Position numbers and translations under genes: made by a program. From a virus, in IMG/VR virus record IMGVR_UViG_3300013014_001174, positions 1 to 64,000 of that record: DNA of 64,000 nucleotides; one strand, written 5' to 3'. Below, one piece after another: positions 4,578-47,283 of the stretch. Position 1 is the first letter of the stretch, and the number at the start of each line of letters is the position of its first letter. A model generated the notes under the pieces. The model saw only the letters and a program-made list of their open reading frames with translations, was not told the origin of the DNA and ran no database searches.

Positions 4578-4579
4578 AA

Positions 4580-5107
4580 ATGATAGTGGGAGAGTACACA
4601 TACGGACAACAAAATATTAAAAAAATTTTTGTAAATGAGTTTCCTAACGTAAATTTAATAATTGGTAAATTTTGTAGTATTGCTTCAAATGTTAGTGTGT
4701 ATTACGGACATGGTTACCACGATTCAAATAATGTATCAACATACCCTTTTGGTTATGTTCATAATCATATTTTTTTATCTGACAAATTAAACAATGGTAA
4801 AACAAATGGTGATATAATTATCGGCAATGATGTGTGGATAGGAGATAACGTTACCATAATGAGTGGTTGTAAGATTGGGGACGGTTCAGTTTTAGCAACT
4901 AATTCTCACGTTGTTAATAATGTTCCACCTTATTCTATATATGGTGGCAATCCCGCTAAATTAATTAAATATCGTTTTGATGAGGATACTATTGAAAAAC
5001 TAATGTTAATAAAATGGTGGAATTGGGATTTGGAAAAAATTAAACAAAATCTTTATTTATTAAATAATAATAATAATATAAATAAATTTATTGAGTTGCA
5101 TTTATGA
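4580..5107 (+). CDS. Left-handed beta-helix (XAT/CatB-like) O-acetyltransferase
   Basis: 175 residues containing hexapeptide repeats (IIIGNDVWIGDNVTIMSGCKIG and nearby) and the family tail NVPPYSIYGGNPAKLIKYRF. A histidine-rich loop (YYGHGYHDSNN) is placed where xenobiotic acetyltransferases carry the catalytic His. Expected reaction: acetyl-CoA-dependent O-acetylation of a sugar. Coupled to the next gene by a 4-bp overlap. Confidence 0.8.
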   Translation: MIVGEYTYGQQNIKKIFVNEFPNVNLIIGKFCSIASNVSVYYGHGYHDSNNVSTYPFGYVHNHIFLSDKLNNGKTNGDIIIGNDVWIGDNVTIMSGCKIGDGSVLATNSHVVNNVPPYSIYGGNPAKLIKYRFDEDTIEKLMLIKWWNWDLEKIKQNLYLLNNNNNINKFIELHL

Positions 5108-6039
5108 AAATATTAATAACTGGTGGTGCTGGTTTTATTGGTACCAAAATTTGTAATAAATTAAAGGAGGATTTTGAAGTAATTATTTTAGATAATTTTT
5201 CACAACAGATTCACGGTGAAGAAACCCCAAAATTAATTGAGGGTGTGGATTACGTTTTTGGTGATGTTACAAGTACCGAAGACTGGAAAAAGGTTATGTT
5301 AAAAAACCCAGACTATATTATTCATTTGGCGGCAGAAACTGGAACTGGACAATCTATGGATGAAATTACTAGATATGTTAACACAAATGTTGTGGGGACT
5401 TCAGTTATGTTAGAATTTTTAAATAAAAATAAAACTAATGTAAAAAAAATAATTCTATCATCAACAAGGGCTGTTTATGGTGATTTAGAAAATAACTCTG
5501 AAACGCTAATAGTCGACCCAAAATCGGTTTATGCTGTAACAAAACTTGCTCAAGAAAATTTAATAAAAACATCAAGTAAAGTTCCTTATACAATTTTAAG
5601 ATACCAAAATGTTTTTGGTGATGGACAAAGTTTAAATAACCCGTACACTGGTATCATAAGTATTTTTAGTAATTTATTTTTAGAAAATAAATCGGTTACG
5701 ATATTTGATAACGGAACCCCAACAAGGGATTTTATCTATGTTGAAGATGTTGTTGACGCCACAATAAAATGTCTAGAAAATGTCTCAACTAATTATAAAA
5801 CATATGACGTTGGTACTGGTACTGAAATAAAAATTTTAGATGTTACGCATAAACTAAAAAAATTGTCTAATAGTACATCTGAAATTATAATAACTGATTA
5901 CCATAGAGATGGTGATATAATGTTTGCTAAAGCTAACACAACAAAAATAAAAACTGATTTAAATTGGGAACCAAAATTTACAATTGAGGATGGGTTAAAT
6001 TTTTTTTATAATTGGTTTAAAGCGGAAAAAAATTTATGA
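5104..6039 (+). CDS. NAD-dependent nucleotide-sugar epimerase/dehydratase (extended SDR)
   Basis: 311 residues. GGAGFIG at residues 7-13 is the Rossmann NAD(P) site; LSSTRAVYG and VYAVTK supply the Ser/Thr and Tyr-x3-Lys catalytic residues; the C-terminal TRDFIYVEDVVDA is typical of GalE/rhamnose-epimerase-like enzymes. It probably epimerises a nucleotide sugar for the transferases upstream. Sequence alone does not fix the substrate. Overlaps both neighbours by 4 bp. Confidence 0.8.
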   Translation: MKILITGGAGFIGTKICNKLKEDFEVIILDNFSQQIHGEETPKLIEGVDYVFGDVTSTEDWKKVMLKNPDYIIHLAAETGTGQSMDEITRYVNTNVVGTSVMLEFLNKNKTNVKKIILSSTRAVYGDLENNSETLIVDPKSVYAVTKLAQENLIKTSSKVPYTILRYQNVFGDGQSLNNPYTGIISIFSNLFLENKSVTIFDNGTPTRDFIYVEDVVDATIKCLENVSTNYKTYDVGTGTEIKILDVTHKLKKLSNSTSEIIITDYHRDGDIMFAKANTTKIKTDLNWEPKFTIEDGLNFFYNWFKAEKNL

Positions 6040-6944
6040 AAATAGTAATAACTGGTGGTAGTGGTTTAGTTGGTCAAAATTTAAAAAAATATCTCCCAGA
6101 TGGCATTTACCTTTCCTCAAAAGATTATGATTTAACAAAAGAATCGGATGTAATTAGTATGTATGAAAATCATAAACCAAATGTTGTAATTCATTTAGCG
6201 GCAAAGGTTGGTGGTATTTTAGACAACATAAACAAACCAGCAGAATATTTTACAGAAAATGTTTTAATGAATACTTTATTAATTGAGTACGCAAGAAAAT
6301 ACAATGTAAAAAGATTTATTGGTGTTTTAAGCACTTGTATTTTCCCAGATGTGATGGAATCATACCCAATGAAAGAAACCGACTTACATTTTGGTCCACC
6401 AACAAGTACTAATTTTTCATATGGGTATGCAAAAAGAAGTATGGCTGTACAGATAGACGCTTACAACAAGCAGTACGGTACAAAATACCAATATCTAATT
6501 CCTTGTAACTTATATGGATTAGGTGATAAAGATCACGAATCTAATAGTCATTTCATAACAGCATTAGTTAAAAAAATTTTTATTGCAAAAAAAAATAATG
6601 AAAAGAATATAACTTTATTTGGTGATGGTACACCATTAAGACAATTTATGTTTGCGGATGATTTTGCAAAAATAATATATGAAGTTATTACCAAAAATAT
6701 TTATGAAAGTTTTAATATTGCGGGTAATGAAAATTTAACAATAAAACAAATGGCCAAAATTGCTTTAGAGTCTTGTGACGCTAAAGATTTAGAAATAAAT
6801 TGGGATTTAACAAAACCAAATGGTCAATATAGAAAAGATGTTTGTACGGATAAATTAAAATCTTTACTACCAGAATTTGAACCGTTATCCTTATCTAAAG
6901 GAATAAAATTAGTTTATAAAAGTTATTATGATAAAATTAGTTAA
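6036..6944 (+). CDS. GDP-L-colitose/GDP-L-fucose synthase (epimerase-reductase, ColC/Fcl-like)
   Basis: 302 residues, the length of bacterial GDP-fucose synthase. Visible: GGSGLVG (NADPH site), LSTCIFP (Ser and Cys of the active site), YGYAKR (Tyr-x3-Lys) and NLYGLGDKDHESNSHFI, which includes the catalytic His region. Fcl converts GDP-4-keto-6-deoxymannose to GDP-fucose; its relative ColC carries out the equivalent step on the 3-deoxy intermediate to give GDP-colitose. The directly following ColD-like gene (16-bp overlap) favours the ColC role, but the two cannot be told apart by eye. Confidence 0.8.
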   Translation: MKIVITGGSGLVGQNLKKYLPDGIYLSSKDYDLTKESDVISMYENHKPNVVIHLAAKVGGILDNINKPAEYFTENVLMNTLLIEYARKYNVKRFIGVLSTCIFPDVMESYPMKETDLHFGPPTSTNFSYGYAKRSMAVQIDAYNKQYGTKYQYLIPCNLYGLGDKDHESNSHFITALVKKIFIAKKNNEKNITLFGDGTPLRQFMFADDFAKIIYEVITKNIYESFNIAGNENLTIKQMAKIALESCDAKDLEINWDLTKPNGQYRKDVCTDKLKSLLPEFEPLSLSKGIKLVYKSYYDKIS

Positions 6945-8079
6945 CGACACAATAAATAAGGAAGATATTAAAGCCTTAATTGAATGGTTGTCTCAAGATG
7001 AAATCCCTAGATTAACTAAAGGGGATTTAACTTTAAAACTGGAAAATTTGTGGGCAAAAAAAATTGGTACAAAATATTCAGTATTTGTTAATTCTGGTTC
7101 ATCCTCAATTTTACTTACTCTTGCGGCACTCAAGTACTCAAATAAATTAAGGAATGAAAAAGTTGTTGTTCCAGGTTTAAGTTGGGCGACAGATGTTAGT
7201 TCACCAATGTTACTTGGTATGCAGCCAATTATGTGTGATTGTAATTTAGATGATTTATCTTGTGATTTAGAAAGTCTAGAACAAATCTTTAAAACCGAAT
7301 CACCATCAACTTTAATTTTAGTATCACCATTAGGATTAGTTCCAGATATGGAAAAAATAGTCTCAATGTGTGAAAAATATGATGTTATACTATTGGAAGA
7401 TGTTTGTGAAAGTATGGGGTCTAAACACAAAGAAAAATACTTAGGTTCTTTTGGTTTTGCGTCATTTTTTTCAATGTATTTTGGACATCACTTAAGTACG
7501 ATTGAAGGTGGGTTTATCAATACAAACGATGAAGATTTTTACCATACACTACTAATGATGAGAAGTCACGGTTGGGATAGAGATTTACCAAAAGAAAAAC
7601 AAATTGAATTAAGACAAAAATATAATGTAGATGATTTTGAATCTTTATATAATTTTTATTTACCGGGGTTTAATTTAAGATCTACAGACTTACAAGCATT
7701 TATTGGGCTAAGAGCAATTGAAAAATTGGATAAATATTCAAAGAGAAGAAACAAAAACTTTTTTGAATATCGAAATAACATTAAAATAAACGAACTTATG
7801 ATGCCAATTAATGAAAACAATTTCATATCAAATTTTGCGTATCCAATCGTTTCATTAAATAAAAAAGAAATTGTTAATAGGTTAATTGAAAACGGTATTG
7901 AGGTACGTCCATTAATTGCCGGTAATATGTCAAATAAACCTATGTGGTATGAAAATTACGGATTTGTTAGTTTACCTAACTGTGAAAAAGTAAACGAATA
8001 CGGGTTTTATATTCCAAACAATCAAAATCTTACGTCAGAAGAAATAAACTTTATTTGTAAAATAATTAATAATGCATAG
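6928..8079 (+). CDS. colD: GDP-4-keto-6-deoxy-D-mannose 3-dehydratase (ColD-like, PLP-dependent)
   Basis: 383 residues of the DegT/DnrJ/EryC1/StrS aminotransferase fold. Ordinary members bind PLP through a lysine; here the position reads YFGHHLSTIEGG, with a histidine (residue 188) instead of lysine. That substitution is the defining feature of ColD, which removes the 3-hydroxyl of GDP-4-keto-6-deoxymannose. Other ColD-like stretches are LLEDVCESMG (cofactor Asp), RSHGWDRDLP and EVRPLIAGN. The gene sits between the ColC/Fcl-like gene and gmd, so all three enzymes of GDP-colitose synthesis from GDP-mannose are present. Confidence 0.85.
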   Translation: MIKLVNDTINKEDIKALIEWLSQDEIPRLTKGDLTLKLENLWAKKIGTKYSVFVNSGSSSILLTLAALKYSNKLRNEKVVVPGLSWATDVSSPMLLGMQPIMCDCNLDDLSCDLESLEQIFKTESPSTLILVSPLGLVPDMEKIVSMCEKYDVILLEDVCESMGSKHKEKYLGSFGFASFFSMYFGHHLSTIEGGFINTNDEDFYHTLLMMRSHGWDRDLPKEKQIELRQKYNVDDFESLYNFYLPGFNLRSTDLQAFIGLRAIEKLDKYSKRRNKNFFEYRNNIKINELMMPINENNFISNFAYPIVSLNKKEIVNRLIENGIEVRPLIAGNMSNKPMWYENYGFVSLPNCEKVNEYGFYIPNNQNLTSEEINFICKIINNA

Positions 8080-8851
8080 ACTATACAAACCCGCCAGATC
8101 TAAAGAGGTAAACAGAGGTTTATTTTCATATCTAACAGAATCTGTGTTAAATATGGTAAACTTCATTACGTTAAATGGAGACGTTGATATAAAATATTAT
8201 CACGATTTGTTTGATATACCAGGTTATGGAAATGAAAATATGTTTGACATATCTTTAATTCAAGATAAAAATGATTTTAAAATAAATAATCATCTTTATA
8301 CAAACATAGAATTGTTTCCAAGTGATTTAAACCTTGATTGTTATAATGTAGAAAGTCTTAATCAGGATATTAGATTAATAAGCGAAAAAATAATCAAAGA
8401 TTTTTTTATACCTAATGAAACTTTAAATGATTTACTTAATAAAAGACATAGTCAAATTAACTTTAATACAACCGTTGGGGTTCATAGGAGATCAACAGAT
8501 ATTAGTAGTCACCATAAAATTGTAAACATAGAAAACATTTTTAATGAGGTTGAGTCTAATGAGTTTGATAATGTTTTTTTAATGTGTGATAACATCTATG
8601 ACACCAATAAATTTAAACTAAGGTATGGGAATAGGTTAATAACCTATGATATGTTTACTTCCAAAAATATGATTTTACCATTTTTTAAAATGAATAACTC
8701 AATTGAAGATATACATAATCATATTGTAGAGTTACTATTCGGAGTTTTTACATTATCTAAAACAAAAAAATTTATATGTACAAAATCTAACATATCTTCT
8801 TTTTGTATTTTATCTAATTCTAAATTAAACTATAAATTACTTACTAAATGA
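8072..8851 (+). CDS. Putative GT-B fucosyltransferase (NodZ/alpha-1,6-FucT-like)
   Basis: 259 residues, not strongly conserved. The segment VGVHRRSTD near residue 138 resembles the GDP-fucose-binding motif VHxRRTD of alpha-1,6- and O-fucosyltransferases, and FLMCDNIYD after it fits the following strand of a GT-B fold. Being embedded between colD and gmd supports a GDP-6-deoxy-sugar transferase. It overlaps colD by 8 bp and gmd by 4 bp. The call is tentative. Confidence 0.5.
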   Translation: MHRLYKPARSKEVNRGLFSYLTESVLNMVNFITLNGDVDIKYYHDLFDIPGYGNENMFDISLIQDKNDFKINNHLYTNIELFPSDLNLDCYNVESLNQDIRLISEKIIKDFFIPNETLNDLLNKRHSQINFNTTVGVHRRSTDISSHHKIVNIENIFNEVESNEFDNVFLMCDNIYDTNKFKLRYGNRLITYDMFTSKNMILPFFKMNNSIEDIHNHIVELLFGVFTLSKTKKFICTKSNISSFCILSNSKLNYKLLTK

Positions 8852-9840
8852 AAATAGCACTAATAACCGGTATAAACGGTCAAGATGGGTCGTATTTAGC
8901 CGAATTTTTATTAGAAAAAGGTTACGAAGTTCACGGAACATTAAAAAGAAATTCAGTTTCTGAAAACCAAACATCAAGACTTGATGATATTTATGACCAA
9001 CTAAAATTACATTATTCAGATTTAACAGATTTGTCATCACTAATTAGTGTGATACAAAAAATCAAACCAAACGAAATCTATAATTTGGCAGCACAATCTC
9101 ATGTTAGAATCTCTTTTGATCAACCAATTTATACCGCGAATGTTACTGGTTTAGGGACATTGAATATGTTAGAAGCAATTAAACTTATTGACCCAACAAT
9201 TAAGCTATACCAAGCGTCTTCTTCTGAAATGTTTGGAAACAATATTGATGAAGACGGATACCAAAGAGAATCAACACCGATGTCCCCAGTATCACCTTAC
9301 GGATGTGCAAAAGTATTTTCATATAACATTTGTAGAAACTATAGAAATTCTTATAATATGTTTATATCAAATGGAATTTTATTTAATCACGAATCACCAA
9401 GACGCGGAACAAACTTTGTAACAAATAAGGTTTGTAAAGAAGCGGTAAAAATTAAACTAGGCTTATCAAACCAATTAAAACTTGGTAATTTAGATGCCAC
9501 AAGAGATTGGGGGCACGCAAAAGACTATGTTGAGGCAATGTGGATGATATTACAACAAGACGCTCCAGACGACTTTGTTTGCTCAACAGGGATCTCCCAT
9601 TCAGTAAAAGAACTTGTGGAATACGTTTTTAACAAACTAGAATTAGACTGGAAAAAATATTTAAAAATTGATGAAAAATTTTATAGACCTGAAGAACTCT
9701 CAGACTTAAAAGGAGACTCAAAAAAACTAAGGGACCTAACTGAGTGGAAACCAAAATACACTTTTGAATCTATGTTAGATGAAATGGTGGAATATTGGTT
9801 AGGATTCTTTGATAAACAAATAAAAATAAATAATGACTAG
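8848..9840 (+). CDS. gmd: GDP-mannose 4,6-dehydratase
   Basis: 330 residues, normal for GMD. GINGQDGSYLAE is the NADP-binding loop specific to GMD; SSSEMFG and the Tyr-x3-Lys in YGCAK give the catalytic residues; HESPRRGTNFVTNK and LGNLDATRDWGHAKDYVEAMW are near-invariant GMD stretches. It makes GDP-4-keto-6-deoxymannose from host GDP-mannose, the common precursor of GDP-fucose, GDP-colitose and related sugars. Last gene of the sugar operon; overlaps phoH by 8 bp. Confidence 0.93.
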   Translation: MKIALITGINGQDGSYLAEFLLEKGYEVHGTLKRNSVSENQTSRLDDIYDQLKLHYSDLTDLSSLISVIQKIKPNEIYNLAAQSHVRISFDQPIYTANVTGLGTLNMLEAIKLIDPTIKLYQASSSEMFGNNIDEDGYQRESTPMSPVSPYGCAKVFSYNICRNYRNSYNMFISNGILFNHESPRRGTNFVTNKVCKEAVKIKLGLSNQLKLGNLDATRDWGHAKDYVEAMWMILQQDAPDDFVCSTGISHSVKELVEYVFNKLELDWKKYLKIDEKFYRPEELSDLKGDSKKLRDLTEWKPKYTFESMLDEMVEYWLGFFDKQIKINND

Positions 9841-10570
9841 AAAAAAACCAGTAACAGCAACAAAAGAAGAAACGACGCAACAACCATTGTCAAGAAAAGA
9901 CTTTATTAATTCGATAGTCAAGAAAAGACAAAAAAATAAATTTTTAACAGAACATCAAGAAGAGTATTATAACATTTTAAAAAATAATGAAATAACAGTT
10001 GCATCTGGTGCCGCTGGCGTTGGTAAGTCATATATCGCTATGAAGGCCGCAGTGGATTTATTACTCGATCCTGATAATTCATATGAAAAAATTATAATTG
10101 TTAGGCCGGCTGTTGAAGCTGAAGAAAAACTTGGTGCTCTTCCTGGTAATTTAGAAGAAAAATTGGATCCTTATATTTTTCCGTCGTATTACCTTTTAAA
10201 TAAAATTATTGGTAAAGAAGCTAGAGAAAAATTAAAGGACGCTGAAATAATTGAAGTGTTTGCCCTTGCTTATATGAGAGGTATGAATATAGACAACTCT
10301 ATCCTTATATTTGAAGAAGCCCAAAACTCAACACCAAATCAAATGAAGTTACTATTGACAAGAATAGGTTTCAATAGTAAATTCTTTATATCTGGGGACT
10401 TAGAACAAACTGATAGATATAAAGACAAAAGACAATCTGGACTTTATGATGCTATACAAAGATTTAACGATATCCCAAATATTGGTGTTTATGATTTTAG
10501 AAACGCTAAAAATGTTCGTAACCCATTAATTAGTAAAATTTTGGCAAAATATGAAGAAAATAGGGATTGA
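9833..10570 (+). CDS. phoH: PhoH-like ATPase
   Basis: 245 residues. After a Lys/Thr/Gln-rich N-terminus, GAAGVGKS (about 59-66) is the Walker A motif, IIIVRPAV and LGALPGNLEEKLDPY are PhoH signatures, and ILIFEEAQN is Walker B. PhoH proteins are P-loop ATPases, often fused to RNA-binding or nuclease domains and common in large phages; the exact role is unsettled (RNA metabolism is likely). Overlaps the next gene by 20 bp. Confidence 0.9.
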   Translation: MTRKKPVTATKEETTQQPLSRKDFINSIVKKRQKNKFLTEHQEEYYNILKNNEITVASGAAGVGKSYIAMKAAVDLLLDPDNSYEKIIIVRPAVEAEEKLGALPGNLEEKLDPYIFPSYYLLNKIIGKEAREKLKDAEIIEVFALAYMRGMNIDNSILIFEEAQNSTPNQMKLLLTRIGFNSKFFISGDLEQTDRYKDKRQSGLYDAIQRFNDIPNIGVYDFRNAKNVRNPLISKILAKYEENRD

Positions 10571-11231
10571 GATTAATGGTGTGTTAAGAGACACAATAGA
10601 AAAGTTTAAACAAGTTTACGAAAAACATCTAATCGATTCTAACGAATTTGAATCTACAGATAAAAAATATGAATTAACTTTTTCTGGTGAAACAAACGAA
10701 GTCCTTGAAATTAATGAGGAATTGACGGTTAATTCTTTTGAGTATAAAATTTTAAACCCCATCACGTCATTAAATTTATTGGATCATTTTACTTTTCCAT
10801 CAAAAGATGAACTATATAATTTTATGTATAAAGAATATACTATGGAATTATTTGGTCATGCGCCGTCTTCAGAAATGAACACATTTAATATTCTTAATGA
10901 ATTATATTATGATTTAAGAGATGAATATGATTTACTTATAGTTTCTGACGAAATTGGTAAATCAAAACCAGCATCACTCTTCTTTCTTTCAAAATTTGGG
11001 TGTCTTTTAGAAAAAGTCGTTTTTTATAGTGAAACAACAAAGAATGATATGTGGGATAATGTGGATATTCTAATTACATCAAATCCAGATTTAATTCTTA
11101 ACAAACCAAAAGATAAAATTGTTGTAAAATTTTTACGTGATTACAATAAAAACATTAAGTCTGAGTTGGAAATATCTACTTTATCCGATTTTAACTTATT
11201 ATTAAAAAAAATAAAAGAGGAATATGTTTAA
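10551..11231 (+). CDS. HAD-superfamily-like protein with altered motif I
   Basis: 226 residues. The opening IGIEINGVLRDT sits like HAD motif I (DxDxxx), but Glu and Asn replace the two aspartates; further on, LLIVSDEIGKSKPASLFFLSKFG resembles motifs II/III and the DILITSNPDLI segment resembles motif IV. If the fold call is right, phosphatase activity may be lost. Coupled to phoH (20-bp overlap) and to the next gene (8-bp overlap). The assignment is from short motif similarity only. Confidence 0.5.
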   Translation: MKKIGIEINGVLRDTIEKFKQVYEKHLIDSNEFESTDKKYELTFSGETNEVLEINEELTVNSFEYKILNPITSLNLLDHFTFPSKDELYNFMYKEYTMELFGHAPSSEMNTFNILNELYYDLRDEYDLLIVSDEIGKSKPASLFFLSKFGCLLEKVVFYSETTKNDMWDNVDILITSNPDLILNKPKDKIVVKFLRDYNKNIKSELEISTLSDFNLLLKKIKEEYV

Positions 11232-11523
11232 AATATTTAACGAAATCTATTACGTAGACATTGATGCAATTGATGAATATGTACAATTTACCGCCGAAGT
11301 TGAAGAGGAATTAGGTGATGCGCCGGATATGACGGCAGAAATAAAAGAGGAAAAACAAATTCATTTAGTAAAATATGAATTAGTTAAAAATTTTTTAGAA
11401 ACAGTGTTAACAGAATCCAATGAAGTTGACGAAGATTTGGGTATGAAATCAAGCGAAGTTTCCATACCATTTAAAATTGCGTTTAATTCGTTATTAATTA
11501 AGAAAATAATAAATAAAATATAA
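11224..11523 (+). CDS. Hypothetical small acidic protein
   Basis: 99 residues, acidic in the middle (EVEEELGDAPDM), with a mixed beta/helix composition. No family recognised. It overlaps the upstream HAD-like gene by 8 bp, has the same AT-rich codon use, and ends 6 bp before the next start, so it is a genuine member of the co-directional run of genes between the sugar operon and the late sigma factor. Confidence 0.65.
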   Translation: MFKIFNEIYYVDIDAIDEYVQFTAEVEEELGDAPDMTAEIKEEKQIHLVKYELVKNFLETVLTESNEVDEDLGMKSSEVSIPFKIAFNSLLIKKIINKI

Positions 11524-11529
11524 AAAAGT

Positions 11530-12591
11530 ATGAATACCGAACAGATAAAAAAATTAGAAAAAGCGGTTCAAAACATGAAGGACAAAAAATCTAGATTGTA
11601 TTTTGTTACCCAAGACACCAAAGGAAACGCAAAAGGTTCAGTTAGACTGACTTATCAGATTGCAATGACGTTAAAAAAGAACGGTTACAACCCAATTATC
11701 CTTCACGAGAACAAAGAATACATTGGTGTTGGTGAATGGTTAGGAGAAAACTATATGTCAGAGCTACAACACAAATCAATAGATGAGGGTAATTTAGAAA
11801 TTTCACCAGATGACATTATCATCATTCCTGAAATTTTTGGTTACATTATGGATCAAGTTAAAAAATTACCTTGTGGTAAAGTTGTTTTAGCACAAGCTTA
11901 TGATCATATTTTTGAAACTTTACAACCGGGTGAAAACTGGCAACAACTTGGATTTTTTAAATGTATTACAACTTCTGAAACTCAAAAAAAATATATTGAG
12001 CAATTTATGCGAAAAGTTTCATTTGAAATTATAGAACCTGTAATTAGTGAGTGTTTTGTAAAAAATGAAAAACCAGCAAAAACAATCATTTCTATCCATT
12101 CAAGAGATCAAAGAGATACTGTAAATTTAATTAAACAATTTTATGTTAAATTTCCACAATATAGATGGATTACTTTTAGAGATTTAAGAGGTCTTACAGA
12201 AAATGAATTTGCTAATGCATTAAAAGAAAGTTTTGTTTCTGTTTGGATTGATCAAACTAGTGGTTTTGGCACATTTCCGTTAGAGTCTATGAAATCTGGT
12301 GTCCCAGTAATTGGTATGTTACCACACTTACAACCAGAATGGTTAAACGAAGATAATGGAATTTGGTTAGCAAATAAAAATTCATTGGTTGAGGTTATTG
12401 CTGATTTCACACAAAATTGGTTAGAGGATAATTTAAACCCAGAACTTTTTGATGCTATGGATAAAACAGTTAGTAAACATTCTGATTTAGATAAATTTAA
12501 ACATAATGTTTTAAGTGTTTTTTCTGAAATGATTAACACAAGAATGGCAACATTCGAAGAACAACTAAATAAATTTGAAACAATTGATTAA
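11530..12591 (+). CDS. GT-B (GT4-like) glycosyltransferase
   Basis: 353 residues. The first half (RLYFVTQDTKGNAKGSVRLTYQIAMTLKKNG) matches the acceptor domain of GT4 enzymes; the second half holds a segment typical of the donor domain: GFGTFPLESMKSGVPVIG, where the family's E-x7-E motif lies, is close to the GT4 pattern. A second, separate pair of glycosyltransferase genes (this one and the next) lies well after the sugar operon, suggesting a different glycan target, possibly glycosylation of a phage component. Confidence 0.75.
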   Translation: MNTEQIKKLEKAVQNMKDKKSRLYFVTQDTKGNAKGSVRLTYQIAMTLKKNGYNPIILHENKEYIGVGEWLGENYMSELQHKSIDEGNLEISPDDIIIIPEIFGYIMDQVKKLPCGKVVLAQAYDHIFETLQPGENWQQLGFFKCITTSETQKKYIEQFMRKVSFEIIEPVISECFVKNEKPAKTIISIHSRDQRDTVNLIKQFYVKFPQYRWITFRDLRGLTENEFANALKESFVSVWIDQTSGFGTFPLESMKSGVPVIGMLPHLQPEWLNEDNGIWLANKNSLVEVIADFTQNWLEDNLNPELFDAMDKTVSKHSDLDKFKHNVLSVFSEMINTRMATFEEQLNKFETID

Positions 12592-13399
12592 TATGGAAAG
12601 TAAAAACACAATATCGGTTATATTACCAATCAAGTCTGGTAAGGCAATAGACTTTGAAGAATTTTTTGAAAAGGCAATAACTTCAGTAAAAAACCAAGAA
12701 GGTTTGGTTAGTGAATTAATAATTGTTCACGTAGGTGAAGATTATTTTAAAAACTATGTCTCAACTTTTGATTTTGGGGACATAAATGTAATAATTGAAG
12801 AGTATGATGGTACTCCTAGTTTTGCAAACCAGGTTAATTATGGTGTAAATAAAGCTACTTCTGAATGGGTTTCTATTTTAGAATTTGATGATGAGTATTC
12901 AAATATATGGTTTAAAAACGCAAAAAACTATATGGATATCTACGGTGATGTTGACACTTTTTTACCAATTGTTGTTGATGTAGATTATAAAGGTGTTTTT
13001 GTTGGTTTTACTAATGAAGCAACCTTTGCCGCAAACTTTTCAACTGAAATGGGATATTTAGATAACGAAACCTTACTTACATACCAAAACTTCCAAATAT
13101 CCGGTATGGTAATAAGAAAAAAATCTTTTGTTGATTTTGGAATGTTAAAAGATTCGTTTAAATTAACCTTTGGTTATGAGTTCTTATTAAGAATGACTAA
13201 TAATAATGTTAAAATTATGACAATCCCAAAGATTGGTTATAAACATATGAATTTAAGAGAAGGCTCAATTTTCTGGAATTATAAAAATAGCGATGATAGA
13301 TTGTCTGAAGATGAAGTAAAATTTTGGATTGATTCGGCTAAAAAAGAATATCTATTCATCAAAGAAAGGGAAATAAAATATGAACCACAAGAAGTTTAA
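12575..13399 (+). CDS. GT2 glycosyltransferase
   Basis: 274 residues from the first ATG; an internal ATG at 12593 (MESKNTISVILP) gives a cleaner GT2 start and may be the real one. Motifs: ISVILPIKSGKAIDFEEFFEKA, the SILEFDDEYS acidic cluster at the DxD position, and an aromatic C-terminal half that may bind the acceptor. It overlaps the GT4-like gene and abuts the sigma gene (1-bp stop/start overlap). Confidence 0.72.
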   Translation: MKQLINMESKNTISVILPIKSGKAIDFEEFFEKAITSVKNQEGLVSELIIVHVGEDYFKNYVSTFDFGDINVIIEEYDGTPSFANQVNYGVNKATSEWVSILEFDDEYSNIWFKNAKNYMDIYGDVDTFLPIVVDVDYKGVFVGFTNEATFAANFSTEMGYLDNETLLTYQNFQISGMVIRKKSFVDFGMLKDSFKLTFGYEFLLRMTNNNVKIMTIPKIGYKHMNLREGSIFWNYKNSDDRLSEDEVKFWIDSAKKEYLFIKEREIKYEPQEV

Positions 13400-14151
13400 T
13401 GTTGAGTAATGAAGAAAACTGTGAACAATGTGATGATAAGAAAAAGAAAGGAAGAAAACCAAAAGTAAAAAATTATTTTGCTGAAACAGAAGAAAATGCT
13501 GTAAGAGAGTATCTTACAGCAACAACTTTTGAAGAGAAAAATAAAATTTATAATGATTTTTTAAAACATCCTTTAGATAAAATGATATCGTCAATTATAA
13601 GACGATACAAATTATATAGAAAAGATATGGATTACGAAGAAGTTCATATTGATACACATTCTTTTTTGATGACTAAAATTGATAAATTTAAACCGTCAAA
13701 AGAAAAAAAAGCGTATTCATATTTTGGTACTATTTGTAAAAATTATTTGATGGGTCAAATAATGAAAGATCAAAAAGAAATGAACAGAAAAATTTCATAT
13801 GAAGACATTTCTAGTGATTTACAAAATAATCCGGATATGGTTTATTATATTGATAACGAAGAAATCACTAGTGAAGAAATTATGAAAAAGTTTCTTGAGA
13901 AATTAAAAATTTCATTAGATGATAAAAAAATAACAGAGCAGGAACATAAACTTGGTCAGTCGTTATTTGATCTTTTTGAAAACTACAAAAACCTTTTTAT
14001 TGAAACAAATAACAACAATAAATTCAATAAAAATATAATTTTATTTGAATTAAGGGAGATGACAAATCTCACAACAAAAGAAATTAGGTCTTCAATGAAA
14101 AGATATAAAAAATTATATTCTGAATTATTACAGGATATTTTGAAAGATTAG
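13399..14151 (+). CDS. Late-gene RNA polymerase sigma factor (T4 gp55-like)
   Basis: 250 residues. After a Lys-rich head, residues about 60-135 look like a minimal sigma region 2: IIRRYKLYRKDMDYEEVHIDTHSFLMTKI, then FKPSKEKKAYSYFGTICKNYL, which resembles the sequence recognised in phage late sigma factors, followed by a helical C-terminus (LTTKEIRSSMKRYKKLYSEL). In T4, gp55 directs host RNA polymerase to late promoters. It lies just before the tail genes, and its likely target is the TATTTAT(A/T) box found before structural genes here. Confidence 0.75.
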   Translation: MLSNEENCEQCDDKKKKGRKPKVKNYFAETEENAVREYLTATTFEEKNKIYNDFLKHPLDKMISSIIRRYKLYRKDMDYEEVHIDTHSFLMTKIDKFKPSKEKKAYSYFGTICKNYLMGQIMKDQKEMNRKISYEDISSDLQNNPDMVYYIDNEEITSEEIMKKFLEKLKISLDDKKITEQEHKLGQSLFDLFENYKNLFIETNNNNKFNKNIILFELREMTNLTTKEIRSSMKRYKKLYSELLQDILKD

Positions 14152-26216: not shown

Positions 26217-26429
26217 ATGGAAAACGAAAATAAACTATTTGGTACTTTATTTGGTTCTATAGACTTAAAAACTGAAGAACATTTGGATATTATCCTTACT
26301 ACTATGGATAAAGACCACTCCATATATTATCTAGTTGAGGCCATAAAATCAGCCCATAGAAAGGGTGCGTTTACAATTGGTGAAACTGAAGTCGTATCAA
26401 AGGCTATTAGAACTATGTCTAGACAGTAA
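26217..26429 (+). CDS. Small conserved-looking helical protein
   Basis: 70 residues, with amphipathic helices and normal codon use (DLKTEEHLDIILTTMDKDHSIYYLVEAIK). It is divergent from the preceding gene and its 3' end overlaps the membrane protein gene on the other strand by 33 bp. No family recognised. Confidence 0.5.
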   Translation: MENENKLFGTLFGSIDLKTEEHLDIILTTMDKDHSIYYLVEAIKSAHRKGAFTIGETEVVSKAIRTMSRQ

Positions 26430-26876
26430 ATGTACTTTGTATAGCATAATATGTAGGTGATAAACACATAATGTTATTATTCCCCAAGTCTCCATCCAAA
26501 AAAACCCATTAAATATCCAGAAAAAAATTGATATTAAATAGATATAAAAATAGTATTTTAATCTTTTTGTAAGGTATAGTGGAATCAAACAAGAAAGAAA
26601 AAAAAGTATTGCAAATAGGTTATGTAACCAAAAATGACTGGGAACTGAAAATGCGGTTAATAATAGTAAAAACATTGACGGTATTTTCCATTCATCTAAC
26701 TCAAAAAAAAAATAACTCACAAGGGCATTTGTTAATATAAATAAAAATTGTAACTCCGTTTCCCAGGCTTGGGATACTGAATCTAGTTCCCCACAGTAAA
26801 AATAAATAATAAAAGGTTGTAGGATAGCAAGTACTATAACAAACAACCTTCTAATAAAATCAAAACTTTTTATCAT
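26397..26876 (-). CDS. Polytopic membrane protein
   Basis: 159 residues with about five hydrophobic segments (around 10-26, 44-58, 66-82, 87-103 and 108-140), so an integral membrane protein. It starts within the stop of the T9SS-type gene (4-bp overlap), so the two are co-expressed. No family recognised; an accessory role for export or anchoring of its secreted neighbour is possible. Confidence 0.6.
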   Translation of the reverse strand: MIKSFDFIRRLFVIVLAILQPFIIYFYCGELDSVSQAWETELQFLFILTNALVSYFFFELDEWKIPSMFLLLLTAFSVPSHFWLHNLFAILFFLSCLIPLYLTKRLKYYFYIYLISIFFWIFNGFFWMETWGIITLCVYHLHIMLYKVHLLSRHSSNSL

Positions 26877-29305
26877 CGTATAATTTTTCTCATTGTACCA
26901 TCATCATATATTTCAATAATAACACCTTTTGATTCTGAACCAACCTCTTGACCTAATAAATTAACGTATTTTACAATCTTTTTATCTGTCTGATAGTTTG
27001 TTATAACTATAGGTCCGTAAGTCTTGTATTGACCATCAAAATCATATTGTTGTAATCTGTAGTACACCACCGAGTTGTTTGAAAATTGATCAACGTATGA
27101 ATATTCAATCAGTTCGTTTGAATTACCTGCAGATCCTTTTTGACCAACACTTCTCCATTCATAACCATCAATACTTCTTTGTATTAAAAAGTAATTAGAG
27201 TTATATTCACTTGATGTTGCCCATTTTAAAAGATTTGTTGTTTCATACCCAACACCCTCAAAATACAACATCTCAACTGGTAATGGTTGTGGTGATGTAA
27301 CTGAAATACCAAACGTACCGGTTGTCCCACCATTATATTCCCATATTCTAATATAAATTGTTTCATATTCAGTAAAATCGCTTCTTGATATAAACGACAT
27401 TGCCCCATTTAATGAATTATCATCATCACATTGTATTTCTACTAATGATCCTGGCGTACCTCTATAAATTGCCATACCACCATCAGTTATCACACCGGTT
27501 TGTGTGTCAAAATCTAATGATGTTACATATTGTGGAAGTGTAACTTTAAACCAAACATCTTCACCAACATATGCAGCACAACTAGGTGTTAATTCAGTAG
27601 TTGTGTTAGTTGCGTTTGTATTAGTATAAGTGACATATGTTACTGTATTTGATATTGTTAAATCAATAGCTCCACTTGGGTTATCATTGATTGGTGGTAC
27701 AGGAGGTGCGGTACAAGTTCTAGATATCGTAAACGTTCCTGTTGAAGTACTACTGGTTAAATAATGAGCAACATAAATATAATACTGAACACCTACCGTT
27801 GTTGTAAATGTATATGTTTCAGTAGAAAATGAATTATCAATGTTAGTTATGTAAGTTAATCCACTACAAGATCCTGACATAAATAATAAACTATGGTCAA
27901 ATGTTGTTGTTGATGTGATGGTTGTTTGTTGACCGTCACCCGCAAATGTATACCAAACACCATAATTAGATGATAATGAAAATGGTGCAGTTTCAACAAC
28001 CGTACCTACTGTCGTACCTGCTAATGAGCTAGTACCACAAGAAACATTTACAGCTCCAGAACAATAATCATTTGCTGGTGGTGGTAATGGAGAGGTTGAA
28101 CTTGCGGACGCATTCCAAGAACTATACGTTCCTCCACAATTACTTCTAACATATAATATATAGGTTGTATTTTGAGTTAATGATGAGGTAGATGCCGATG
28201 TAACTCCCGCACCAACACTACCACTAGCAGTTAATCCTGTTGCACCACTACCCCCTAAACCTGAAGTTCTAATTTCCCATTCATACCCATTTGTCGGTAA
28301 TGATGGTGATGCCGACCAAGATAAATTAGCCGAGGTTGGGGATGTGTAAGTTACTAATAATGGTGATGGTGCCGCGCAAGACGGTGGCGTCCAAGTGTAT
28401 GTTAAACCAGAAGCTGGTTTAACTGTACTTGAAAGTGTTACAGTTGATGTATTTAATGTCCCTGCGGTTGTTGATGCCCAATTTGTTGTGGTTGTTCTGT
28501 TATTAAACGCAGTTGCCCCTCGTATTCCCACTTGAAATGTTGTTGCAGTAGCACTACCAGTCCCTAAATCAGGGCCTAATATATTATAAACAAATTGTAT
28601 TGTGTTTGTTGTTTCGTTTAATTTTATTTGGAAATTATATAATTCACCAAAAAATCCTGATGTGGTATATCTTTGAAATCCTGTAAATTGTACTGTACAC
28701 GTTCTATTAGGTGCGGTACCTGAAGTTAAATATCTAATACCAAAAGTATTTCTACTAAATCTAAAATGGCGAAGAGTTCCTGTGGATGTCGCATTTGCTG
28801 ACATAGTAATTGTAGTTGCCGTTTTAGATGATACCGTAGCACCTGCAGGAATACCTGTACCACTAACTTTATCACCAACTAAAATTTGACTAATGTCTCC
28901 TGAAGTTACAGTAACCGTAGGGTTAGCATTTGTAGTACTAACTCGTAAATTACCACGACCTATAAGATCATTCCCCATTGGAGAAATAGAATTTGCTGAT
29001 GATGATATTGGCGTGTAATTAGTACCTGTAGGTGTAGCACCTAATATGATAAACCCATTTTGACTAATACCGAATGTTGTAAAAACACTACCTTCGTATG
29101 TAAAATTAAATCCAATTGGTTGGGGGGCATACACACCGTCATCAAAAAAGACCGTATTTGTCCAAGTCGTGAAATTATCGGCATTAGTACCACCGGCAAT
29201 AGGTGTATAAGTTCCTGTTGATGACCCAAATGTATAAGAACTAACTTGTGAATTAACAAAAAAACTTGTTAAAATTGTGAATAAAATTATTATATAGTTT
29301 TTCAT
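26873..29305 (-). CDS. Secreted surface protein with fibronectin-type domain and T9SS C-terminal sorting domain
   Basis: 810 residues. Residues 1-20 are a signal peptide (hydrophobic, ending FFVNSQ). Then come a beta-rich N-terminal domain, a fibronectin type III-like domain (SPTSANLSWSASPS), two beta-sandwich regions opening with NDYCSGAVNVSCG and NDNPSGAIDLT, and a C-terminal half-domain starting LPVEMLYFEG with LLKWATSSEYNSNYFLIQRS and VVYYRLQQYDFDGQ. It ends VNLLGQEV...IEIYDDGTMRKIIR. The last two parts are the usual ending of proteins exported by the Bacteroidetes type IX secretion system. Genes like this are normally bacterial; the product should reach the host cell surface or medium. 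Confidence 0.8.
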   Translation of the reverse strand: MKNYIIILFTILTSFFVNSQVSSYTFGSSTGTYTPIAGGTNADNFTTWTNTVFFDDGVYAPQPIGFNFTYEGSVFTTFGISQNGFIILGATPTGTNYTPISSSANSISPMGNDLIGRGNLRVSTTNANPTVTVTSGDISQILVGDKVSGTGIPAGATVSSKTATTITMSANATSTGTLRHFRFSRNTFGIRYLTSGTAPNRTCTVQFTGFQRYTTSGFFGELYNFQIKLNETTNTIQFVYNILGPDLGTGSATATTFQVGIRGATAFNNRTTTTNWASTTAGTLNTSTVTLSSTVKPASGLTYTWTPPSCAAPSPLLVTYTSPTSANLSWSASPSLPTNGYEWEIRTSGLGGSGATGLTASGSVGAGVTSASTSSLTQNTTYILYVRSNCGGTYSSWNASASSTSPLPPPANDYCSGAVNVSCGTSSLAGTTVGTVVETAPFSLSSNYGVWYTFAGDGQQTTITSTTTFDHSLLFMSGSCSGLTYITNIDNSFSTETYTFTTTVGVQYYIYVAHYLTSSTSTGTFTISRTCTAPPVPPINDNPSGAIDLTISNTVTYVTYTNTNATNTTTELTPSCAAYVGEDVWFKVTLPQYVTSLDFDTQTGVITDGGMAIYRGTPGSLVEIQCDDDNSLNGAMSFISRSDFTEYETIYIRIWEYNGGTTGTFGISVTSPQPLPVEMLYFEGVGYETTNLLKWATSSEYNSNYFLIQRSIDGYEWRSVGQKGSAGNSNELIEYSYVDQFSNNSVVYYRLQQYDFDGQYKTYGPIVITNYQTDKKIVKYVNLLGQEVGSESKGVIIEIYDDGTMRKIIR

Positions 29306-29405
29306 AATTAAATATTTTTACTTAATAAATAGTTTAAAAAACAATTTAAAACAAGTGTAAAACTTAATAAATGAACATTAACCGGCGTTAAATTATTATA
29401 TAACA

Positions 29406-29456: not shown

Positions 29457-31313
29457 TTATCTCAATTCTCTTAAATCAAACGTACGAACACCGTCAACTG
29501 TAACTCTAGCGTAGAAACGGTTATTAACCATTTTCTTAGCATAACGAGTCATTATACCTTTAATAGGTGTAAAGTTGAATGGGTTATACATTGTAGGTGT
29601 CAATTGTAGAGGTACATACGGTGCGTAGATGTAACCTGTGTCAAGTAAAGACGTTCCTTTGTGACCAATCAAAATTGTGTTTGGTGGGAAGTAAGGATCT
29701 CTATACACTTGGTAACGACCAGCTAAAGTACCAACTCTTTCAATACCCATATTGTATTGGTCTTGCTCAGGAGACGCGTTAGATACGTGGAAGTATTCTA
29801 AATCATCAAAGATCGCAGAAACTTCAGAAGAAACAACAATCCAGTTAGCACCACCTCTCAAAGTTGATTTGTGAATTTGTGCAGACAATTGGTTGATTGC
29901 AGTAATCAAAGTTTGATTCCAATCTTTTTGAGTGTAAGAAGTTGTTAAACTTAATCTTCTCCATCCGTTGTAATCCCAACGTAAATTCCAAGCAGCACCT
30001 TTTCTAAGGTCTCTAAGGATTTCACGGTCGATTTCAGCAGCAACTTGTTCAGACAATAAAGCTGTCAATTCTGCTTCAGCATCGATATTATGGAATGCAG
30101 CAACGTCTTGAGCAAGCTCTGGAGACCATTGTGCTCTTAATTTTCTTTCAGTTACAGAAACTGTTACAGACTCAAGGTCAAAAGAAACCTCACCGATTTT
30201 TTCTTCAAACTCCAATTCTTCATATCTTCTCCATACAGCAGTAAATGATGTACCAGAAGTAATTGCAGATAAAGTAGAACCTGTATATCCGTCTAATGAT
30301 GTATCACCACAAGTAGCACAAGCTGGACAAGAAAGATCAACTTCAAGAATAATACATCCATTTGCGTTACAGATGTCATAGAATGAACCACCATTTCCAG
30401 TGGTTGGGAAAGTAGTTTGTGTTGTTTCACCATACTGAACAATTCCTTTACCATATTTTTGAGTAACAACTCTAAATAAAAGTGGTTGAGCTGCTGTAGG
30501 AAGTGGACATGTGTTACCAGATGAAAAACCTAAACCAACATAATTTGGAATAATTTTAAGGTCAGAAAGGAAAGATTCTGTATCGATTTCGTTTCCGTCT
30601 GGTCCGATTAATTTTCCAGCACCAGCGATATTACTCCAACCACAAAGTTGAATTAAAACTTTTCTTGTGTTACCAACATACGCAGCATCATTATTAGATG
30701 CGGTAACTAAATTACCACCAGACCATTTAACAACTGTTGATGGAGCTGTAACAGCTGACCAACGACCTTTTGAATAGTCAAATAGACCACCTGGATCTAA
30801 TCCTGGTTCTGCACCTTCGTAGAATAAATCATAAAGATTTTTTGCGTAAGGAAAGTTTGTTGCAGACGCATCACCATAACCTTGTCCTGGATTGTTTTCA
30901 TTAGAGTTAACTGCTTCTGGAGAACCAACTGGTGGATAATGAACACCTGATGTTCCGTTATCATAACCACTTGAATATCCTTGGATTTTAGGTACGAAGT
31001 AGAACAATTTACCAATTGGTAAGTTCATAGCTTGTACAGATACGATATCGTTAGCTAATAATTTAGAGAATACTCTTCTAACGATTGGAAATACAACAGT
31101 TTCAAAAGCTCCGTTTGAGCCTTCAGAAGTCGCTTCGTTAATTAGGTGAGATGCTTGGTTTTCATATAACTGTGCAACGTTCTCTTTTAAATGTCCTTTA
31201 AGACCTTCTAGGAATCCTAATCTATCCCATTTGTTAATTGTATCTTCTTTGATAACTTTAAGGTGTTTTAAACCGATGTTACCAACAAGACCTGATTCTA
31301 ATAATGCTCCCAT
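29457..31313 (-). CDS. Major capsid protein (T4 gp23-like)
   Basis: 618 residues. The segment FETVVFPIVRRVFSKLLANDIVSVQAMNLPIGKLFYF is the conserved opening of gp23-type capsids; the C-terminus has the family's FFPPN/ILIGHKG and YAPYVPL segments. Residues 58-60 (INE) followed by AT form an I-x-E site matching the T4 prohead-protease consensus, so the first 60 residues are probably removed, as in T4 (cut after residue 65). Last gene of the head operon; strong terminator after it and late-type box at 31354-31361. Confidence 0.93.
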   Translation of the reverse strand: MGALLESGLVGNIGLKHLKVIKEDTINKWDRLGFLEGLKGHLKENVAQLYENQASHLINEATSEGSNGAFETVVFPIVRRVFSKLLANDIVSVQAMNLPIGKLFYFVPKIQGYSSGYDNGTSGVHYPPVGSPEAVNSNENNPGQGYGDASATNFPYAKNLYDLFYEGAEPGLDPGGLFDYSKGRWSAVTAPSTVVKWSGGNLVTASNNDAAYVGNTRKVLIQLCGWSNIAGAGKLIGPDGNEIDTESFLSDLKIIPNYVGLGFSSGNTCPLPTAAQPLLFRVVTQKYGKGIVQYGETTQTTFPTTGNGGSFYDICNANGCIILEVDLSCPACATCGDTSLDGYTGSTLSAITSGTSFTAVWRRYEELEFEEKIGEVSFDLESVTVSVTERKLRAQWSPELAQDVAAFHNIDAEAELTALLSEQVAAEIDREILRDLRKGAAWNLRWDYNGWRRLSLTTSYTQKDWNQTLITAINQLSAQIHKSTLRGGANWIVVSSEVSAIFDDLEYFHVSNASPEQDQYNMGIERVGTLAGRYQVYRDPYFPPNTILIGHKGTSLLDTGYIYAPYVPLQLTPTMYNPFNFTPIKGIMTRYAKKMVNNRFYARVTVDGVRTFDLRELR

Positions 31314-45222: not shown

Positions 45223-47283
45223 ATGGCAATAGAATTTGTGGATGATGGCGATAAAGGTAAAAAGAAAGATGGTAACACACCAGTATTAGATAACTTCAGT
45301 AAAGATTTAATTAAATTAGCAGAACAAGGAAAACTAGACCCTGTAATTGGTCGACAAAAAGAAATCCTACGTATTGCACAAGTATTATCTAGAAGAAAGA
45401 AAAATAACCCCATTATTATTGGTGAACCTGGTGCTGGTAAAACAGCGATTGTTGAGGGTCTTGCAATGATGATTCACGCTGGTGAATGTCCTAAAAACTT
45501 AGCAGATAAAAGAATTGTATCGTTAGATATAAATTCAGTTGTGGCCGGTACAAAATACCGTGGACAATTTGAAGAAAGAATGAAGGTTATTATTGAGGAG
45601 TTACAAGCAAGTCCGAATATTATAATTTTTATAGATGAAATACATACAATGGTTGGTGCAGGAAATAGTTCTGGGTCACTCGATGCCTCAAATATTTTTA
45701 AACCAGCATTATCAAGAGGTGAAATTCAATGCGTTGGTGCGACAACACTGGATGAATACAGAAAACATTTTGAAAAAGATGGCGCGTTAGAAAGAAGATT
45801 TCAAAAAATAATTGTTGACCCATCAACAAAAGAAGAGACGTTTGAAATTCTAAAACAAAGTAAAGAAAAATATGAAGAGCATCACAAAGTAAATTACACA
45901 GACGAGTCACTTTGGTTATGTGTTGAGTTAGCTGATAGATATATTACCGATCGTGAATTTCCAGATAAAGCTTTTGATATTTTAGATGAGGTTGGTTCTC
46001 GTATGCAAATTGATATTAAATTACCAGAGCATATTGAAAAACTAAAACAAGAAGCTGTAGATATTAAACAAGAAAAAGCGGATGTAATTAAAAAACAAAA
46101 ATATGAAATGGCCGCAGAATTACGTGATCGTGAAAAAAATATTCTACTTAAACTTGATGACGCAAAAAAGAAATTTGAAGAGGAATTAAAAAACAGTAAA
46201 AGAGGTATTCCAGAAGATTTAATTTATGAAGTGGTTTCAAATATGACCAAAATCCCAGTTAATAAAATTAATATCGATGAAAAAAACTCACTTGTTAATT
46301 TAGAAGAATCGCTTAATGGTTATGTAATTGGACAAGAGGAAGCGGTTAAAAAAATATCAAAGGCAATTAGAAGAAATAGAGTTGGTATTAAGGACCCAAA
46401 TAGACCAATTGGTTCATTTATATTTTTAGGATCTACCGGTGTTGGTAAAACGTTTTTAGCTAAAAAGTTAGCAAAAGAAATTTTTGGTAGTGAAGATAGT
46501 TTAATTCGTGTTGATATGTCAGAATATCAAGAAAAACACACAATCTCAAGACTTATTGGGTCACCTCCAGGATATGTTGGTCACGAAGAAGGGGGACAAT
46601 TAACCGAACAAGTGAAAAACAAACCTTATTCTGTGATTTTATTTGATGAAATAGAAAAAGCAAATAAAGACATTTTCTCAACACTACTCCAGATGTTAGA
46701 TGATGGTCATATGACTGATGGTCTTGGTAGAAAAATTAATTTCAAAAACTGTTTAATTATTATGACATCAAACATTGGTGTTAGAAAAGTGCAAGATTTT
46801 GGTTCTGGTGTTGGGTTTAAAACTAATAACAATAGTGATGCGGTACAAGAAGAATATAAAAGAGACGTTTTGAAAAAAGAATTACGTAAGTTTTTTGCCC
46901 CAGAATTTTTAAATAGAATTGATGATGTTGTTATTTTTAATTCTTTAGTAAAAGAACATATTGATAAAATAGTAAAACTTGAAATAGAAAAATTGATTGG
47001 TAGACTTAATTCTATGCGATATACGGTCTCTTATGAGGCGTCTGTAATCGATTTAATTGCAAAAGTTGGTTTTGATGAACAATATGGTGCAAGACCAATT
47101 AAACGTGCAATCCAGGATAAAATAGAAGATTTAATTTCTGAAAAGATTTTAACAAATGATGTTGTAGAAGGAAAAGAATATATGTTGTTTGTTAAAGGTG
47201 AGGGTGATGATCAAACAATAGAAATAGAGGATAGGTCAAAACCAGAACCAAAAAAACGTGGTAGAAAGAAAAAGGAGGATTAA
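45223..47283 (+). CDS. ClpC/ClpA-type AAA+ unfoldase lacking the N-domain
   Basis: 686 residues. Two AAA+ modules: first with GEPGAGKT (67-74) and IIIFIDEIH, second with GSTGVGKT and VILFDEIEK. A short middle insert (MAAELRDREKNI) resembles the UVR motif region of ClpC. The N-terminal adaptor-binding domain is absent. In the second module, VGF (in DFGSGVGFKTNN) sits where ClpC carries its ClpP-docking loop, so it may work with host ClpP. Isolated on the plus strand, with a tmRNA gene 2 kb downstream: tagging plus degradation is a natural pairing. Confidence 0.88.
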   Translation: MAIEFVDDGDKGKKKDGNTPVLDNFSKDLIKLAEQGKLDPVIGRQKEILRIAQVLSRRKKNNPIIIGEPGAGKTAIVEGLAMMIHAGECPKNLADKRIVSLDINSVVAGTKYRGQFEERMKVIIEELQASPNIIIFIDEIHTMVGAGNSSGSLDASNIFKPALSRGEIQCVGATTLDEYRKHFEKDGALERRFQKIIVDPSTKEETFEILKQSKEKYEEHHKVNYTDESLWLCVELADRYITDREFPDKAFDILDEVGSRMQIDIKLPEHIEKLKQEAVDIKQEKADVIKKQKYEMAAELRDREKNILLKLDDAKKKFEEELKNSKRGIPEDLIYEVVSNMTKIPVNKINIDEKNSLVNLEESLNGYVIGQEEAVKKISKAIRRNRVGIKDPNRPIGSFIFLGSTGVGKTFLAKKLAKEIFGSEDSLIRVDMSEYQEKHTISRLIGSPPGYVGHEEGGQLTEQVKNKPYSVILFDEIEKANKDIFSTLLQMLDDGHMTDGLGRKINFKNCLIIMTSNIGVRKVQDFGSGVGFKTNNNSDAVQEEYKRDVLKKELRKFFAPEFLNRIDDVVIFNSLVKEHIDKIVKLEIEKLIGRLNSMRYTVSYEASVIDLIAKVGFDEQYGARPIKRAIQDKIEDLISEKILTNDVVEGKEYMLFVKGEGDDQTIEIEDRSKPEPKKRGRKKKED

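Follow-up and report, generated by a model that had tools for sequence, protein, structure and literature searches.

The closest described counterparts of the C-terminal tail considered here are the short C-terminal domains (CTDs) of Prevotella intermedia, which are 40–55 aa long, form one three-stranded sheet and retain motifs B, D and E (PMC11969387). Cleavage and glycosylation have been shown for some of these, models have them binding PorV in the manner of long CTDs, and according to the same study P. intermedia is the only species reported to have them (PMC11969387). In HBP35 the 22 C-terminal residues are enough to export GFP, and the essential signal was placed there (PMC4804311). Cargo of the type IX secretion system (T9SS) is normally bacterial, and a sequence-only reading of the DNA described here was right to say so, although phage cargo had been published before, as type A cargo of Cryophage (PMC7468147) and as BACON/T9SS open reading frames (ORFs) of crAss-like phages (PMC6949934).

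The gene that we describe lies in a window of 64,000 nucleotides (the whole stretch of DNA analysed), taken from a virus record of 78,219 bp. The tail of its product resembles the short CTDs of P. intermedia in length class, in having a single three-stranded sheet without the first half of a CTD, and in the apparent order of B-, D- and E-like motifs at the extreme C-terminus of a protein with a signal peptide. It differs in carrying V, I or F for the Tyr of motifs B and D, in being known here from sequence and models, and in being found in phages and mainly Crocinitomicaceae. With the Cryophage and crAss-like cargo it shares a phage origin, predicted export by the host T9SS and variability among related phages, but those proteins have annotated T9SS sorting domains whereas the putative tag here is a short CTD missed by standard models, and the gene stands beside the capsid gene of T4-like (gp23) phages. 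Like the type A (TIGR04183/PF18962) and type B (TIGR04131/PF13585) domains, it would be a C-terminal address tag behind a linker resembling fibronectin type III (fn3), and it has in common with them the succession [IV][DN]xxG[RQK], G-x-[hydrophobic] and a terminal basic strand; unlike them it gives no profile match, is half as long and has three strands instead of seven.

The 810-aa gene and its surroundings

The features of the locus, in window coordinates, are as follows.

26397–26876, minus strand: 159-aa membrane protein, its start codon sharing ATGA with the stop codon of the main gene
26873–29305, minus strand: 810-aa gene, with signal peptide, exchangeable beta-rich modules, fn3-like linker and short T9SS-type tail
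26876–26986, minus strand: putative short CTD, residues 774–810, with motif B-like VNLLGQ, D-like KGVII and E-like RKIIR and three predicted strands
26996–27292, minus strand: pre-tail linker of fn3-like fold, residues 672–770 (LPVE..F....LLKW.T.SE.NS.YF...S.DG..W)
27326–28093, minus strand: two galactose-binding/PPC-like beta domains, about residues 405–660 (weak assignment)
28106–28372, minus strand: fibronectin type III, residues 312–400 (PF00041, E 1.9e-4, 22 bits; PDB fn3 matches)
28382–29245, minus strand: N-terminal surface domain, about residues 21–308, replaced in some relatives
29246–29305, minus strand: signal peptide MKNYIIILFTILTSFFVNSQ, about residues 1–20 (hydrophobic segment 5–23)
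29325–29331, minus strand: late-promoter-like motif TATTTAT, beginning 26 nt ahead of the start codon
29404–29434, minus strand: hairpin plus T-run, terminator-like, between gp23 and the 810-aa gene (by eye from the sequence)
29457–31313, minus strand: gp23 major capsid protein, upstream neighbour of the 810-aa gene (PF07068, E 6.9e-73)

The record is viral, with homologues of the T4-type head genes gp23, gp20, TerL and gp21 (the protease); within the window the gp20 match has E 3.4e-75 and the terminase match E 1.1e-10. The naming of a host through isolated phages was dropped, the nearest annotated capsid relatives being only ~41% identical. Overlapping plus-strand glycan-synthesis genes occupy positions 287–14151 of the window, among them glycosyltransferases of families 10 and 11 (fucosyltransferases), a GDP-mannose 4,6-dehydratase, an epimerase and a DegT aminotransferase; this phage-coded sugar pathway could serve to modify the virion or the host surface. 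At 45223–47283, just upstream of the late region, lies a 686-aa protein with a match to the PHROG 'ATP-dependent protease' (E 2e-235).

The ORF at 26873–29305 is real and uninterrupted over its 810 aa, and the signal peptide and fibronectin-type domain claimed for it by the sequence-only reading both hold. By sequence and hydropathy the N-terminus reads as a Sec-type signal with a single hydrophobic segment, and Q20 is invariant in an alignment of relatives (A4). The fn3 match falls under the PF00041 gathering score of 25 bits, and a PDB sequence search of the protein returned weak fn3 matches only (E 0.0024), while PHROGs gave no family. The galactose-binding/PPC-like assignment is based on PF23759 (GBD_T9SS_assoc) at E 1.3 only, on sequence pattern and on model strands. 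The beta-rich domains are of a type known from Bacteroidota surface proteins. Residues 139–227 (28625–28891) resemble, with 43% identity (E 1e-3), part of tail tubular protein A of Xanthomonas phage PBR31; a beta insertion of phage type may sit here within a surface domain of bacterial type. The full-length model was poor (pLDDT 59) and was interpreted for the C-terminal third only.

In the window, the 60 bp ahead of gene starts contain 23 same-strand copies of TATTTAT against 1.96 expected (~12-fold); the motif precedes gp21, gp20, the terminase and the 810-aa gene, and its place before the gene is conserved in most relatives compared. It is probably a promoter element of late genes; read on the opposite strand, the T4 late motif TATAAATA becomes TATTTATA. 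As the gene has a TATTTAT of its own and is separated from gp23 by the hairpin and T-run, we infer that it is expressed late from its own promoter.

The C-terminal linker and short tail

The 'characteristic T9SS ending' reported from the sequence proved to be half present: the fn3-like pre-CTD linker is there and the canonical 70-aa sorting domain is absent. An HMM search for such a domain, proposed together with that claim, went against it, as TIGR04183, TIGR04131, PF18962 and PF13585 were all silent in the whole 810-aa protein (for the type A models TIGR04183 and PF18962 there was no match at E ≤ 10, and the type B models TIGR04131 and PF13585 likewise gave none). The NCBIfam sorting-domain models were also silent on C-terminal pieces, and TIGR04183 across the record. 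What ends the protein is the tail KKIVKYVNLLGQEVGSESKGVIIEIYDDGTMRKIIR, of ~37 aa (about 37–42), which lacks the PNP (first) half of a CTD, and it is this reduction that would explain the silence of the standard models. In full the linker pattern is LPVE..F....LLKW.T.SE.NS.YF...S.DG..W...GNS...Y.Y.D....YYRL.Q.D.DG.

When the final 150 residues were modelled with AlphaFold2 from 51 relatives (mean pLDDT 88), the result was a seven-stranded linker followed by exactly three tail strands (117–121, 135–140 and 145–149), with pLDDT of 81–96 in the tail blocks. Foldseek matched the modelled linker to fn3 domains; in the PDB fold search with the C-terminal model, the matches listed were fn3-like or other beta-sandwich folds only, with no solved T9SS CTD among them. 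In the tail the Gly of motifs B and D is invariant and the near-terminal K nearly so, and the Tyr of B and D is replaced by V, I or F. A comparison of the short tail with a canonical CTD profile covered 16 columns with a probability of 1.7% and was not significant (E 0.029). We therefore do not claim sequence homology with long CTDs, and equate tail and CTD by their position, architecture, motif order and context.

The tail and the N-terminal domain in bacteria

When bacterial genomes were scanned with the C-terminal region, most of the proteins found had canonical CTDs, but about nine loci ended in the same short tail, several of them from Crocinitomicaceae or its genera (Brumimicrobium, Fluviicola; the family name is that given by the NCBI taxonomy of the named records) and the others from unclassified Flavobacteriales or Bacteroidetes. 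A tail profile of 42 positions matched bacterial proteins at E 1e-14 to 4e-20 per genome. It was found in 101 of 150 sampled Crocinitomicaceae genomes at E ≤ 1e-3 (87 of 150 at ≤ 1e-6), with up to 24 copies in genomes of this family, and across the class in only 12 of 247 genomes at E ≤ 1e-6, at least three of the 12 being Crocinitomicaceae, so that it is rare outside the family. Of 20 bacterial loci read because of a tail match, every one had the tail at its extreme C-terminus, and nearly all had signal-peptide-like N-termini; these ORFs include Endonuclease I (PF04231) and leucine-rich-repeat (LRR) proteins. The carriers have T9SS components: in the tail-bearing group the PorU sortase scored above cut-off in six of six genomes tested, and TIGR04183 proteins were present in 15 of 15 genomes examined, with about 100 or more matches each.

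Two short-tail subtypes can be told apart in the Crocinitomicaceae loci (L178–L197), one reading VNTLGQEV..YKGIV...YSDGS..K after a linker and the other, immediately behind Endonuclease I or LRR domains, VVDLTGRE..KPNTLLIYIYSDGT.EK. None of the six of these loci that were tested matched the NCBIfam or Pfam sorting-domain models.

Parts of the phage N-terminal domain (within residues 25–310) match surface proteins of 1,000–2,600 aa in 19 of 120 Crocinitomicaceae genomes, and in six of six loci read the match starts directly after the signal peptide of these giant proteins. Since both ends of the protein, tail and N-terminal domain, thus match Crocinitomicaceae, the phage gene would have its origin in that family, and a Crocinitomicaceae bacterium is probably the host of the phage.

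The tail might instead be a beta mini-domain with another role (dimerization, or binding to lipid or peptidoglycan) that is played in host proteins too, the protein being exported by Sec and then remaining in the periplasm or reaching the surface by some other route. The silence of the canonical profiles and the non-significant comparison with canonical CTDs agree with this, as does the fact that tail proteins are a small minority in bacteria (usually 1–7 per genome, where proteins with canonical CTDs number about 100 or more), but the bacterial tail sits behind the very linker that elsewhere precedes the canonical CTD and ends proteins of extracellular type, its architecture and apparent motif order equal those of the proven short CTDs, and some phage relatives have type B or short-CTD neighbours. 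We consider such a role unlikely, and export through the host T9SS remains the better reading of the tail.

Relatives in other viruses

Relatives of the linker and tail are encoded on at least 289 viral contigs. The tail was conserved at the C-terminus in all 87 tailed phage ORFs examined, and taken with the bacterial profile scores this indicates that it is not a chance resemblance. N-terminal modules are replaced wholesale in three loci (L012, L015 and L016), which keep linker and tail. The dN/dS of the tail was 0.12–0.51 in eleven pairs, consistent with a region mostly under purifying selection while the N-terminal modules are exchanged; and between the window and L001 dS was 0.04 in the C-terminal part against 0.62 elsewhere, a sign of recombination between address (tail) and payload. 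Uncultured huge phages carry relatives as well, and a protein of LR745206 itself ends in the short tail. In that 634-kb phage (L200, 3691–5369) the gene for the signal-peptide protein with the short tail seems to be broken in two by a frameshift in the deposited sequence.

In 67 of the 87 tailed loci gp23 lies no more than 2.5 kb ahead of the gene, and several relatives are away from any recognizable capsid gene. In some loci other genes stand between gp23 and the short-tail gene; by their sequence pattern most of these resemble homing endonucleases (HNH or similar), and they were not counted as part of the system. The adjacent membrane protein, taken by the sequence-only reading for a co-expressed partner, does overlap the gene through ATGA in this phage; it follows the gene in only 24 of the 87 loci, which rules out an obligate pairing.

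A subtilase-like gene precedes the short-tail gene in six loci (L026, L039, L041, L042, L049 and L053). Three of the six were tested with Pfam and matched PF00082 at E 1e-28 to 1e-31; L039 and L049 were called subtilase-like by NCBIfam protease models, and L042 by position and length only. The gene in L039 is without the signal-peptide part. The subtilase tail is itself short and CTD-like, with classical motifs at its end (VIDINGR..LPGYYFVV..KKIYKN). The subtilases with signal peptides between gp23 and the short-tail gene are:

L026, 5006–6460: signal-peptide subtilase
L041, 4775–6205: signal-peptide subtilase
L049, 4430–5860: signal-peptide subtilase
L053, 4167–5621: signal-peptide subtilase

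On L088, a contig classed as viral, a gene at 4577–7015, beside the short-tail gene, encodes SprB repeats and a predicted T9SS type B CTD (47 bits, cut-off 35); a chaperonin-like gene is also on this contig, whose viral nature therefore needs checking.

The position of the gene beside gp23 invites comparison with head decoration proteins of the T4 Hoc type, which it resembles in its Ig/fn3-like modules, in being, probably, a late gene and in being accessory among relatives, and from which it differs in having a signal peptide and a bacterial export tail and no recognized capsid-binding domain. The protein could then be a Hoc-like decoration or a fibre of the virion, and its N-terminal hydrophobic stretch incidental. 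Ig/fn3-like proteins are common in virions, an Ig-like protein that lacks a signal peptide is encoded at nearly this position in Flavobacterium phage immuto, and a late-promoter-like motif would have the protein made alongside the capsid to which its gene is so often close. A virion protein would, however, be expected to have no export signal, whereas this one has a signal peptide with an invariant residue; virions are assembled in the cytoplasm, which a Sec-exported protein would leave; the C-terminal tail is common to secreted nucleases and adhesins of bacteria; and neither the relatives far from a capsid gene nor the subtilase neighbours are easily fitted in. Sampling of 80 contigs with capsid proteins 76–95% identical, of which 56 had enough intact downstream sequence, found a short-tail protein within four genes in 16 of these 56 and none in about 40, although the latter had room for it. 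So many close relatives without the gene argue that it is accessory, of the cargo type, and disfavour an essential capsid component. An optional Hoc-like decoration would by itself agree with accessory status, but given the signal peptide, the bacterial tail and the subtilase neighbours a place in the virion seems to us improbable.

Discussion

We conclude that the 810-aa protein is probably T9SS cargo encoded by a phage, recognition by the T9SS being argued by analogy. The earlier claim of T9SS export is thus well supported, by a short CTD common to the presumed host family and not by the canonical profiles: since proteins that the bacteria themselves export end in this tail too, the phage protein probably uses the host type IX exporter. 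On this model the protein would be produced in the late phase of infection, under a late promoter of its own, and carried across the inner membrane by Sec by virtue of its signal peptide. The short CTD, with its three strands and equivalents of motifs B, D and E, would then be recognized by the shuttle and translocon of the host T9SS (PorV and SprA, if known systems are a guide), and the protein would end up on the surface of the infected cell or be released from it. The tail would act as a fixed address tag and the N-terminal domains as exchangeable payload, here perhaps an fn3/galactose-binding-like adhesin or surface-coat module, with a subtilase in the slot in some relatives.

For the function of this payload our first guess within the cargo model, tentative and speculative as it is, would be a coat of adhesin type, masking receptors or attaching to surface glycans. 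By binding or covering the surface glycans or receptors of the dying cell it might reduce superinfection, or re-adsorption of progeny to debris. Dispersal or adhesion, or damage to neighbours or grazers, are other uses that can be speculated upon, and the receptor masking or effect on gliding suggested by the sequence-only reading are both possible.

More broadly, many T4-like phages may have taken over a minimal three-strand T9SS signal specific to Crocinitomicaceae as a universal tag, with interchangeable payloads encoded in a capsid-adjacent slot and displayed late, a proposal that we regard as evenly balanced. As far as the literature searched shows, the putative short CTD specific to this family, its occurrence in a large number of T4-like phages, in which standard models miss it, and the capsid-adjacent slot for exchangeable payloads are new. 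The finding raises the question of why a lytic phage should decorate the exterior of a cell that is soon to be lysed. A constant tail with swapped payloads offers a set of natural minimal signals with which recognition by PorV and SprA could be tested, and the tail suggests that uncultured T4-like phages have Crocinitomicaceae as their hosts. Earlier examples of phage T9SS cargo came from few metagenomic genomes and their detection leaned on canonical CTD models; with several hundred viral contigs encoding relatives with a putative tag that the standard models miss, use of the T9SS by phages may be much commoner than has been recorded.
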